Below, in pieces: positions 3,805-48,800 of a DNA stretch of 64,000 nt; position 1 is the first letter of the stretch; every line of letters starts with the position of its first letter. The translations under genes were made by a program, and so were the position numbers. The DNA comes from Sacculina carcini. Taxonomy: Eukaryota; Arthropoda; Thecostraca; Sacculinidae. Below the pieces are notes generated by a model that saw only the letters and a program-made list of their open reading frames with translations, made no database searches and was not told where the DNA came from. The stretch is taken from NCBI GenBank assembly GCA_916048095.2, contig OU696579.1, forward strand, positions 3,878,235 to 3,942,234. Direction: 5' to 3'.

Positions 3805-6800
3805 CTGCATCAACGTCAGTCAGTCAGGCAGTCCATAAAAGCATCAACAATTGCAACAGTGTATATTTCTCCAGTGCACAGTAGCGTAAAACAAAGACGC
3901 GAAGCAAACTGCAGACACATGATGAAATATCTCAAAGTGCAACAGTTAAGTAGGCCACGTTTAAGAAGGTGCATTTCTAATGTAAATGAGTGAATAACAA
4001 ATACATAATAAACAAGTATATCTGCATAAATGTATACATCTGATTGTTAATAAGTAAATACATCTAAAATCAGAGCAAACATTGACATTGGAAATTGTTG
4101 GTGACTGTGCGTATGTGTGTATGTGTGTATTTGTATGTCTACATCTGTGGTTCCCAACCTTTTCTAGTTTGCGGCAGCCTTGTCAAGACTTTCAAAAGTT
4201 CCTGGCACTCTTATAAGGAAGTACATATTTAGAATATCCGTAAATATATTTCATTTAGACATTTTGCATCGGTGTAACAACGATGGATATGACCATTTTT
4301 TACACTGGTTCTGCTATGACAACAAAATGGTATTATAATACAAATATGCAATTTTTCCCCTTAATTTCGGTGGCACCCTCAAAAGATCACGCGGCACCAA
4401 AAGGTGCCGCGAGACCGGTTGGGAATCACTGTTCTACACGGTACCTGTTCTGAAACTCCATCAGTTCACCGTTGATCTCCTCGATGTTCACACTGATCCA
4501 CGAAATATCAGCGTACCCGCTCACACGGTCAATGACCTCGTTATAAAGCCTGACCAATAATATATATATATATATATATATATATATATATATATATATA
4601 TATATATATATATATATATATATATATATATATATATATATATATATATATATATATATATCTTGGAAGTAGGCCATTTGTAATAATTTGAGATACGTAT
4701 TCTGATAAATTCCACAACTTTTTTTTAAATACCAGAGATATCTTACAAGAGAAACGAATCAGAAAACGCTGTAGAATTTAACAGAACATATATATATATA
4801 TATATATATATATATCTATATATATAAAAGAGATCCTCTGTGTGTGTGTCTGTGTGTGTGTGTGTGTGTGTGTGTGTGTGTTCGACCCTCCTTGGTCCAT
4901 TTTCTATCAGCTATTATTCGGCCACCACTCAGCCTACCCGCTAACAATTTATACCATCACGTTGGAAATTTTCATGTCTACACTTTAAATTAAATTTTAA
5001 ATTTCAAAAATGAAATCAAAAAAAGTTATAGCGGTGAAAAGACAAAATGAACCCTGAAAAATGCAAAAATTGTGGTCAATGCTCTGCCATCTACTCCTCA
5101 TAAACCAGAAATGGTACAGCCAAACAGATTATACCACTGTGTAGAGAATTTTCTTTCTACAAGATAGGTTATAATTCATATCCAAAAATAGAACATAAAA
5201 GATGTAAACATGACAAAATTTCAATCTATATTCAAAATTATATTTATACTCCACGCGTCCGATTTTCCATACACTATTTCTCAGGAACTATTTGTCACAC
5301 ATTAAAATAAATTAAATCATCGTGCTGGAAATTGTATTTTTTTAAATGCGGTATAATTCTTAATTTTCCAAAGTGTATCTGAAGGAAGTGACGGCGGTGT
5401 AAAGTCAAAAGGACATATTGCCAATTTGACAGCTATTATGCGCACTTGCGATTACACAGGAATATACTACTGTGTAGAGAATTTTGTGTTCTACAAGAAA
5501 AGGTGTAATTTATACCCACAAATGATAAAAAAAACGTGTAAAATTGGCAAAATTCTCAAATACATCCAAAATTACACTTGAACACCGGGTGACTACAATT
5601 TATTCATTTTTATACCCATTTCTCAGGAACTATTTGTCATACATTAAAATTAATTATACCATCGTGCTAGAAATTTTGTTTCCTACAGTACGGTATAATT
5701 ATTAATTTTCCAAAGTGTATCTGAAGGAAGTTACGCCGGTGTAAAGTCAAAAGGACATATTGCCAATTTGACAGCTATTATGCGCACTTGCGATTACACA
5801 GGAATATACTACTGTGTAGAGAATTTTGTGTTCTACAAGAAAAGCTATAATTTATACCCACAAATGATACAAAAAACGTGTAAAATTGGCAAAATTCTCA
5901 AATACATCCAAAATTACACTAGAACACCGGGCGACTAAGATTAATTCATTTTTCTACTATTTCTCAGTAACTATTTGTTACACATAAAAATAAATTATAC
6001 CATCGTTCTAGAAATCTTTTCTTCTACAATACGGTATAATTTGTAATTTTCCAAAGGGTATCTGAAGGAAGTTACGGCGGTGTAAAGTCAAAAGGACATA
6101 TTGCCAATTTGACAGCTATTATGCGCACTTGCGATTACACAGGAATATACACCGATTAAATTTCACTGAAGCCAAATCACAATTAAGAATGCATCATATT
6201 ATCTCCAAGCATGGATGGTGTGGTTTTATTGCGTACAGTTTAATTAATGCTACACTCTACTGAATATAAAGGCTTTATTGTCCTCAATAACGTTCCGCAC
6301 GACGGGCGGGTAAAATGCTATTGGGAACAAAGTAAACTACTGAATATAACTGTGTAATTTAATTGGTTTAATTTCAAGTTGCATAAGCATAAGTTGCATA
6401 AGGATATGGGTTGCAATATCATGTAATGCCAACTTATGCTGTTTTAGCGGAAGCATTAACCTGGAATTATAGAGATGACAGAAGGTTGCATTGTTTTGAT
6501 AGTGTTGTGGAAAAACATGTTTTCTAAATTGAAACATAAATTTCACATTTAGACTTTTAGATTAGCTATAACTTTCCTGTGGGTTTGTTTTTCTTTTTCA
6601 ATTTGCACTAATTTTTTTATGAATTGAATATTAATTATATTTTATGAACTGTTCCGCACGACGGGCGAATTAAATGTATCTATAAAGAGTGGGTTTAAAT
6701 GATAGCGAGGTATATGATATTTTGCTAGCAGTAAATATTCTAGCGATAAAAGTAGAATAGCTCTTAAGCAAATGATTTTGGAGAATGATGTGAACCTTTA

Positions 6801-45800: not shown

Positions 45801-48800
45801 GTTATGTCTGTATTGGTGTTTTTGTACAGTGTACATGTTAGTTTTTTACGTGTTTGTGTGCAGGCCGTGGAGCTCAGAGCAGCGTACACACACCATCTCG
45901 TGGGCCTTGTTTATTCGTGCGAAAAGTCAAATCAACATTGTTTACGACCCAATTCATATTCTTCGGCCTGTTGGGCTGAAGCAAAATTGCGCTCACACAA
46001 ATTGAATTCGACCGCGTCGTCGTCTAATGAAACTGTCCAAGTGGACACACGTCACCAAGTGGATTTATCACCTCGCTTCAGCCCCGCCTGCTCGCCCAAG
46101 ACTACCATTTGTTGCTCGGCTGCCAAGTGTTTTCTGTCGCTGACTTATCAGGCAACTTTCAGCGAGTTGGAAAAACCAGGCAGTACGACGGTTGAAACAT
46201 AATACTCTTGGCAAGTAAGCAAGCCCATTACTTGTTAAGCTTCGCTTACAATTTGCTGCTAAATATTTTGTTGGGGTATTTTCCTCTGCTGTCTTAAAAC
46301 GTCTGATAGCGGAAATACAAAGGGTTCTATAATTCCCTGTTCAGAATAGATTTATTAACATGTATATAGCTAATATTTTGTGGGCAACATTGTAACATTT
46401 TTGCATAATACGTTTTGTGGAAATTTGGGATTGTATATCTTGTATACACAGACGCACGCACACACGTGTGTGTGTAAACATACTTGTAGAGCTTCTGCAT
46501 CAAATTAAGCTCCTTTTTGACGCCGATTAGCTCATGATAATCGGGCATGGGCATTCCGAGCAGTGCACACGACGAGGAGTGTGTCTGGTACAACCTCCAC
46601 AGTCCATCAAAACGATTCTGCCGGAATAAGACCACATTAAAAGTTGACTTAGCAATGGATGACCATCCGAAGCAGACTGGTGGACAAACAAGTTTAGTGG
46701 TCCGTAACCTGTGGGGACTTCTCCACTGGTGAGGAATAGAACAGATACCAAGTGGGAAATTAAAGATTGGATAGGAAAAATATGTGTCTTTATCCATCCG
46801 AATTCGTCTATTTTTCTAGTGACTAATTATAATTCAATTTGGCGGAACAATTGAATGTATTCCAGTTCTCAGCGCTGCTGGGAAAAATAAAGTGTTGGAT
46901 TATTATTAGGTATGGTTATTACGAGGATAACAGATAAAAGGTTTCGGACCACTGATGAAGTTGGAATTGGAAGAGGTAAACTTATATGAGAACTTGGAAA
47001 ATATACAAGTTGGAACCTGCTAAACAAACATGTTTTGAAAACCAGCAGAAAGACCAGCATCGTCGAAAAGGCAAACATTCTCCGTTAGCCTAATCAGGCG
47101 AACCTGTCAAATTCATTTCGGTCGGGTAAGCCTGCCCAAATATATTATTCAGTGTGCAACCTGGAAAGCAAACATGCGGTTGGAGGCGACCCGTGGCTCC
47201 AGATCGGGCTGTATGGGACCCAGGCGCTGATAATCAGCGCTGAATTCGCGCAGCTGCCGCTCAAACTCGGCCAAATTCAGCAACAGCCGGCCCCTCAGCT
47301 TCGGCTCAACCGCCGCTAGATGGTGCTGCACATCGTCGGCGGCGACGACAACACGTCGCCAGTTCGTCGCCAGCGTTTCGAGCAGGTCCAGAGCATCGGT
47401 ATCGACACTGCCGTTGTACTGCGTGGCGACAACCAACGCGCTCTGTCCGAGTCATGCAGCGAAAATGATATAAATATAGGAATAAGAAGGAATTATGGAA
47501 AATTGTAAATCTTGTGATGTTTCCTATTTGCAAATAATTGTTTCGTATTTGCGTATAACTATTTACTGGCGTGTAAATTTTGCTATTTGCGTATGTTTCG
47601 TATTTGCGTATGACTATAATATCAAATAAGTATCCAATTAGATATTTCCATATAAATATACAATTAGATATTTCCATATAAATATCCAATTAGATATTTC
47701 CATATAAATATCCAATTAGATATTTCCATATAAATATCCAATTAGACATTTCCATATATATATATATATATATCCAATTAGATATTTCCATATAAATATC
47801 CAATTAGATATTTCCGTATATATCCAATTAGATATTCTAGTTATCATGTATATCGTGCGCATTGTTGTACTTCTGTGAATTTGACGTCACAGTCGCGAAA
47901 CCCGCAACAGGTGTGTTCTCAATCAAACTTCCGCAATCAAACTTATTCACTCTCATGTATTCTCTAGACTTGACTATTGTAATTCTTTGTACAACCATGC
48001 TCCTCGTCGTTCTCTTAAAATCCTACAACGCGTAATTAATCAATCTTGTCGTTTTGTCCTTCATCCTGTTCCTTGTCGTCACACTTCTCAATTTCTTTTT
48101 CAATTTCGCTGGCTCCCTATTATTCCACGTATTCACTTTCGCCTGTGCTGTCTGATATATAAGCTTCTCCACGATCCTCATCAGCCATCCTATCTCCTCC
48201 TTCTCCTCACTCCTTGCCTCACTCCTTCCCGAATTCCTCTTCCCCTTGTATGCCCTCGTGCTGTAAATGAATCTCCTTGGTCCTCCAAATCATTCTTTAT
48301 TCCGCCCCTCGCCTTTACAATTCCATCCCAATTCACATTACTTCTTCTCTTTCCTACAATTCTTTCCGCTCTAAGCTCTCCAAACCCTTTTTTGACCTCT
48401 CTTTTGACCCAGTCTCCCACACTCTCACACCTTTTGCATGACTATAACATGTTACTCTAGCCTGTTCTTACTCGTATTCCTTCTCTCATTTGCATGCTTA
48501 CTTTATCTACGCTATGACTATATTCTCCCGAGTTGTGTATGTTGTGTTGTGTTGTCATTATGTTTCAGTCGTGTTGTCTTGTCCGTCATGTCCGTCTGCT
48601 TTGTATGTTTTGCCCATATTTTGTCTCTATACTTATTGTCATTTATTGCATATTTGTAGTTTACTTCTTTTGCATCTGTCCTGTTATTTGTATTCCGTGT
48701 TCCCAACTGTTATAATCGTGTCGCGCCCGAGCCCTTCGGTGCGCTATAACAAATACATGTTTTTGTTGTTGTTGTTGTTCTGCGGATGTGTAATTGTGCA

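Follow-up and report, generated by a model that had tools for sequence, protein, structure and literature searches.

A 42-kb intron built of tandem Helitron units in a predicted DNAH5-type dynein gene of Sacculina carcini

Results

Exons and splice joint

The sequence analysed here, called the window throughout, is a stretch of 64,000 nucleotides from Sacculina carcini, corresponding to positions 3,878,235 to 3,942,234 of contig OU696579.1 (labelled C11) in assembly GCA_916048095.2 (264 Mb, 43 contigs). The contigs seen up to C37 measure 6.3-14.9 Mb (9.66 Mb for C11), and C38-C43 measure 13-155 kb. Part of a gene for a DNAH5-type axonemal dynein heavy chain, rich in introns and apparently intact, lies on the minus strand of the window. 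The gene includes the linker and the AAA1 domain, with the Walker A motif GPAGTGKT, and is interrupted, between the exons called D and C, by a giant intron occupied by a Helitron-like family. The features, with the evidence used for each, are the following.

3564..3804, minus strand: exon B, linker region (protein match; splice signals by eye)
4445..4549, minus strand: exon C, downstream of the giant intron (protein match and splice sites)
4550..46483, minus strand: giant GT-AG intron, 41,934 bp, phase 2 (splice sites, split codon)
4560..4661, no strand assigned: (AT)51 tract, about 10 bp from the giant-intron acceptor (Tandem Repeats Finder and sequence)
46484..46617, minus strand: exon D, upstream of the giant intron (protein match and splice sites)
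47161..47442, minus strand: exon E (protein match; ends by eye)
57363..57670, minus strand: exon F, upper end uncertain, lower end by eye (protein match)
4811..44646, plus strand: continuous Helitron-family block, antisense to the gene (alignment)
57963..64000, minus strand: more Helitron-family copies, oriented the other way and lying within the gene, upstream of exon F (alignment)

Exon D ends with CTC TAC AA, followed by the donor GTATGT, whose first base is at 46483; the acceptor, ending in GGTCAG, closes the intron at 4550, and the first base of exon C is 4549. The joint restores an AAG codon (Lys), split in phase 2 by a GT-AG intron. The peptide encoded by exons F-E-D-C-B was matched to the solved DNAH5 chain 8j07_n0 (E-value 4.6e-73, query residues 79-356), and the alignment shows no break at the C-D joint. 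No pyrimidine tract was seen by eye at the giant-intron acceptor.

Further exons were located by tblastn with DNAH5/8 proteins in a 264-kb region. They lie on the same strand and in the same order as in the protein, over 228,686 bp from first to last, and exons C and D are therefore assigned to one gene. The five N-terminal exons are weaker matches, with best E-values from 3.5e-8 to 3.3e-4, and the 3' part of the gene past AAA2-AAA3 was not located by this search. A 971-aa peptide joined from open exon pieces matches proteins of Limulus (65% over 967 columns), Menopon (66% over 808) and Hyalella (71% over 659). The first-pass annotation of this DNA had described a DNAH5/8-family gene with exons C and D joined through a split Lys codon, across a single intron of 41,934 bp, into unbroken family sequence; splice sites, collinear match and exon order agree with it, for the distance to the base.

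Within exon F, in the stem, an in-frame 24-bp repeat (57469-57527) forms a coding expansion.

Size and content of the giant intron

By alignment, the Helitron-like family makes up 39,836 of the 41,934 bp (95%) of the intron, in keeping with the earlier statement that about 40 kb between C and D consists of tandem Helitron-like units. Without the array, 2.1 kb would be left. The located exons are separated by 28 gaps; for exons adjacent in the protein, none of these is larger than the D-C gap, and the next in size measure 20,197, 15,518, 12,661, 11,499 and 9,899 bp. The gap between N5 and F is longer (67,637 bp, 22% of it from the same family) and should contain further exons that were not located. 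The family is absent from 24 of the 28 gaps, and its share is 95% in the D-C gap and 62% in the gap between N2 and N3.

The array consists of nine head-to-tail units on the plus strand, from 4815 to 44606. Each contains a 342-bp internal repeat (CTR) in 1 to 10 copies, for a total of 45; the arrays of this repeat were also detected independently by Tandem Repeats Finder. From 4550 to 44606, all stop-to-stop frames stay below 150 aa. The units, all on the plus strand, are as follows.

4815..8052: unit 0, with TC as its start; divergent left part; 3 CTR copies
8053..12029: unit 1; 4 CTR copies
12030..15332: unit 2; 3 CTR copies; about 400 bp less in the right part than in the other units
15333..21360: unit 3; 10 CTR copies
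21361..26704: unit 4; 8 CTR copies
26705..30337: unit 5; 3 CTR copies
30338..35004: unit 6; 6 CTR copies
35005..41720: unit 7; 7 CTR copies; 3' part composite and longer, including nested pieces of related sequence; CTAG end
41721..44606: unit 8, diverged; 1 CTR copy; CTAG end at 44603-44606, then T

Long, nearly identical repeats are error-prone, and one could suppose that dispersed copies were misassembled into an array, or that C and D were wrongly joined. An artefact of this kind would hardly explain the CTR number, which varies among units (3 in three of them, and 1, 4, 6, 7, 8 and 10 in the rest), as do the sequences; moreover, the flanking exons keep order and strand over 228 kb, and a similar block is present at a separate place, on contig C31. 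It is regarded as very improbable.

The block at 4811-44646 and the one at 57963-64000 have opposite orientations within one gene, and the pre-mRNA could form long double-stranded RNA. The upstream block also contains a 207-bp tandem repeat in 3 copies (63179-63803).

Ends of the units

The 5' end reads TCTATATATATATAAAAGAGATC, preceded by A, at unit 0, on C31 and at loci L005, L006 (the same as L008) and L009. The A precedes TC at all five starts lying next to non-element DNA, and likewise in a facing pair on C30; unit 8 starts without TC. The 3' end is CTAG, which fits CTRR, at the two block ends in the window and at some inner joints, and T follows CTAG at both of these block ends (at 44606 and, for the minus-strand block, near 57963). 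A candidate for the palindrome of 16-20 nt that canonical Helitrons have about 11 bp from the 3' end is CCGCACAACGGGCGG, located some 8-10 bp ahead of CTAG; it can form a 6-pair stem, with energies of -6.6 and -7.0 kcal/mol calculated for two pieces of 36-37 nt without a shuffled control.

Judging from the flanks of filled sites, insertion probably takes place between A and T, without target duplication. The intron units thus appear to have the canonical Helitron ends described in PMC4067079, TC..CTAG in A-T sites. The (TG)n-rich start of the units and the 342-bp repeats fit the microsatellite and central-repeat trait of some Helentron/HINE members; membership of the Helentrons was set aside, as a T-rich or T-T target was not found and the ends are TC..CTAG in A-T sites.

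Divergence among units

Identities between units were calculated without counting gaps. Identity is 99.1-99.9% among the right parts of units 0-6 and 96.7-100% among the left parts of units 1-7. Compared with the latter, the left part of unit 0 reaches 88.8-91.3%, and unit 8 reaches 78.4-86.8% when compared with the other units. The inner units are thus 96-100% alike in the compared parts and the outer edges 78-91%, which argues for recent growth, and the combination of old edges and a younger core indicates that the array grew from inside. Seven of the eight unit joints in the intron share the junction GCTATATCTATATATAT (CTA to the left of the joint, TA to the right), which also occurs at one joint on C31; therefore, a multi-unit block either pre-existed or moved, as terminator bypass would give.

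The family elsewhere in the genome

The assembly was searched with a 401-bp DNA query, and 40 of 1,269 candidates were scored, so that the counts are lower bounds. At least 91 family matches were obtained, of which, by our own tally, 22 lie in the intron and 69 on 16 other contigs. In the 264-kb region, the family covers 44,742 bp outside the giant intron. At least three units stand in a row on C31, and single unit joints were found on C15 (L010) and C30.

A satellite private to the intron is rejected by these data, since 69 of the 91 matches listed are outside it and tandem units occur on C31. The presence of units elsewhere in the assembly had been named beforehand as an observation that would speak against the first interpretation; it does so for a private satellite, and leaves the intron itself untouched. 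Similarly, the proposed transposon-derived satellite holds as far as the tandem, Helitron-like nature of the repeats is concerned, but the array is made of whole elements rather than of a simple satellite, and they occur also in other parts of the genome. The same observations bear on the idea that the host uses the repeats at this intron, be it in the timing of transcription or as a nucleation site for heterochromatin. The D-C gap, twice the next one between exons adjacent in the protein (20,197 bp), is singular in being 95% Helitron family (62% in the next gap), and up to 10 copies of the 342-bp repeat are found per unit, points that speak for such a role; the 69 outside matches of the 91 listed, the 44,742 bp in the surrounding region and the tandem units on C31 make it a rather remote prospect.

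Assignment to DNAH5 or DNAH8

Two gamma outer-arm dynein genes are present in the assembly, the one in the window and one at C25:592221. The latter was represented by part of the stem and AAA1, which are 39% and 73% identical to the C11 gene. The two parts share a frame, with starts 2,520 bp apart (measured by hand), and this frame is reported to stay open for 4,604 aa. The window gene and the C25 copy differ in one AAA1 motif, NPLYAG in the former and NPGYAG in the latter.

Phylogenetic analysis was performed on 36 proteins, namely 34 chosen from 195 fetched and the two genes described here. Seven of the 36 rows fill less than half of the columns, and some forks remain open; the split between DNAH5 and DNAH8 is supported by values of 100/99. 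The window gene falls in the DNAH5 clade, whose members include Limulus, Hyalella, a louse, bugs and moths. The DNAH8 clade holds the C25 gene and, among its other members, Fopius DNAH8, a Drosophila jambulina protein, beetles, two moths and Timema. None of the rows is annotated as kl-3 or CG9492, and the D. jambulina protein is taken as kl-3 from its placement. A tree of 24 proteins also sets the window gene on the DNAH5 side, and in both trees the two genes group with arthropods, outside the sampled insects. In approximately unbiased (AU) tests, placement of the window gene in the DNAH8 clade was rejected (p-AU 1.46e-7), as was a clade of the C11 and C25 genes (p-AU 2.56e-6), which excludes C25 as a recent retrocopy of the window gene.

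According to Table 2 of PMC6367277, the fly gamma chains are kl-3, corresponding to DNAH8, and CG9492, corresponding to DNAH5. The same source gives kl-3 as testis-only by reverse transcription-polymerase chain reaction and CG9492 as found in antennae only; one column of the table has kl-3 as 'Ch + Testis', and CG9492 is listed as restricted to chordotonal neurons. On phylogenetic grounds, the window gene is best described as a DNAH5-type gamma chain, on the CG9492 side, and the predicted kl-3 counterpart is the gene at C25:592221, not the one with the giant intron.

The first-pass annotation had suggested that the window gene may be the kl-3 counterpart, with slow transcription or a male-linked location as possible consequences. 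On this reading it would be a sperm dynein whose giant intron is filled with satellite, and it might be male-linked and transcribed in a spermatocyte-specific way, as for the fly Y genes. The protein superfamily is the same and the intron is giant and filled with repeats; besides, PMC11207136 describes such introns in fly kl-3 and kl-5, spliced co-transcriptionally. This assignment is nevertheless contradicted by the tree, by the AU p-value of 1.46e-7, by the genome's own DNAH8 gene, contained in one frame at C25:592221, and by the listing of fly DNAH5 (CG9492) as chordotonal-neuron only, and it now seems most unlikely.

Dynein heavy-chain genes in single frames

A search of the assembly with AAA1 produced 38 matches (44 of 44 candidates scored), grouped by us into 14 loci. 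Names are those of the best PDB match of AAA1 alone, except for DNAH8, which was named from the tree. AAA1 alone was read for each single-frame locus (for DNAH8 also part of the stem), and frame lengths are as reported. Open frames of 4,025-4,695 aa were found at 7 of the 14 loci:

C25:592221 (DNAH8), C25:7198573, C31:1332530, C23:2820823, C8:9764239, C1:2638184, C6:517909

The set comprises DNAH8, a DNAH17/9-type chain, DNAH10, cytoplasmic dynein 1, dynein 2, DNAH7 and a degenerate copy on C6, so that six recognisable dynein heavy-chain genes lie in single frames of more than 4,000 codons. For DNAH1 (C3), AAA1 is in one frame, and the frame measures 830 aa. The genes split into exons are DNAH5 in the window, a second DNAH17/9-type chain (C26), DNAH12 (C9), DNAH3 (C11:4.91M) and, on C1, a divergent gene. 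AAA1 scores fail to tell DNAH17 from DNAH9 for either of the beta chains (645.8 versus 631.0 bits, and 471 versus 453.4).

Two dynein-like loci form a nearly identical pair, L045 (C6:517909-518883) and L050 (C7:11667800-11668852). The former has a degenerate Walker A, without GPAGTGKT, in a 4,063-aa open frame, and the latter is partial.

As a control, the assembly was searched with the myosin head (65 of 154 candidates scored), and the whole head domain was in one frame for 1 of the 82 matches; at least one other large motor family is therefore mostly intron-split. Since cytoplasmic dyneins are also found in single frames, the pattern is not sperm-specific; what these genes may have in common is expression in the germ line at large. 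A literature search for an intronless axonemal dynein heavy chain led only to work on mouse Ttc26, a weak negative.

Other sequences in the window and contig ends

A decayed piece resembling a long interspersed nuclear element, with a reverse transcriptase match (RVT_1, E-value 2e-11), was found in the E-F intron (49927-50418), and integrase-like fragments were noticed by eye near 54.9-55.6 kb. A transposase-like fragment, also recognised by eye, lies at 44700-45330, with a short repeated motif on either side; 54 aa tested from near 44.8 kb matched no Pfam family. A search of the window against Rfam at gathering thresholds returned no match.

The right end of C11 is made of (TTAGG)n repeats, as in many arthropods; the pattern (TTAGGG)5 gave no match in the assembly. 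An 11-bp variant, (TTAGGTAACAC)n, mixed with TTAGGGCACAC, occupies the opposite end of C11 and also the starts of C37, C39, C42 and C43. Judged by their first 300 bases, none of the contigs C37-C43 is recognisable as mitochondrial; C40 begins with N.

Discussion

The most probable explanation of these data, to which we assign a probability of about 85%, is that the intron grew from about 2 kb to 42 kb by accumulation of tandem Helitron units in a DNAH5 gene, with no need for a host function. Rolling-circle read-through, with the 3' terminator bypassed, would produce a multi-unit element, which would insert into a TA-rich intron; unequal exchange or conversion may then have multiplied the inner units and their 342-bp repeats. 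The array would be transcribed antisense to the elements and spliced out, the likely cost being transcription time.

Several points weigh against this account. Read-through and unequal exchange are not separable from the data: seven identical joints favour exchange, and the same joint on C31 either predates the array or moved between loci. In its right part, unit 7 is no more than 96.4-96.5% identical to most others, yet 99.7% identical to unit 2. Hairpin copies within the units also read CTAG, but are then followed by A or G. The array length can be no more reliable than the assembly, and tandem units that are nearly identical are prone to assembly errors. Finally, with the (AT)51 tract beside the acceptor and an unclear pyrimidine tract, splicing of the giant intron may not be efficient.

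Elements of the system have been described in other organisms. In PMC4067079, terminator bypass is given as the origin of the tandem Helitron arrays of Myotis lucifugus and Bombyx mori. By that description, these resemble the array in having Helitrons in tandem; here, however, the array fills an intron, and each unit has its own 342-bp tandem repeats. Cg_HINE, the non-autonomous Helentrons of the Pacific oyster, and DINE-1 have, according to PMC7492417, a 5' microsatellite, satellite-like central repeats and a genome-wide scatter. They share with the units described here the nature of non-autonomous rolling-circle elements with a 5' microsatellite and central repeats, and differ from them in their ends, which are canonical for Helitrons here (TC..CTAG, between A and T). 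Fly kl-3 and kl-5 are likewise axonemal dynein heavy-chain genes with introns enlarged by tandem repeats. Kl-3, however, is DNAH8-type and Y-linked, and its gigantic introns consist of simple satellite (AATAT probes; PMC11207136), whereas the window gene is DNAH5-type, Helitron units make up its 42-kb intron, and in this genome DNAH8 occupies a single open frame. With fly CG9492, the window gene shares its side of the DNAH5/DNAH8 split, a likeness taken from the tree.

The single-frame dynein heavy-chain genes are more surprising than the giant intron. A tentative explanation, which we consider somewhat less probable than its contrary, is that in this lineage single-exon retrocopies of 12-14 kb took the place of the genes for sperm-type and housekeeping dynein heavy chains, since mRNAs of these genes occur in the germ line. 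DNAH5 would serve somatic sensory cilia alone; it would therefore have been out of reach of retroposition, and would have retained its ancestral introns and become bloated. Retroposition in the germ line, disappearance of the earlier gene versions with introns and the division of expression between the genes are all inferred steps of this proposal. If it were true, the situation would be the reverse of that in the fly, where sperm dyneins carry the giant introns.

Conclusions

Intron gigantism caused by tandem Helitrons in a DNAH5 gene is a new case of a known kind of event. It provides a clean example of a single intron made about twentyfold larger through tandem multiplication of Helitrons, with old edges and a younger core. 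The idea of a second kl-3 is corrected, and the contrast with the single-frame DNAH8 is the point that deserves to be followed up: the pair formed by DNAH5, intron-rich and extending over more than 228 kb, and DNAH8, in one open frame, allows a long-standing question, the relation between the intron length of dynein genes and the type of transcribing cell, to be tested directly.

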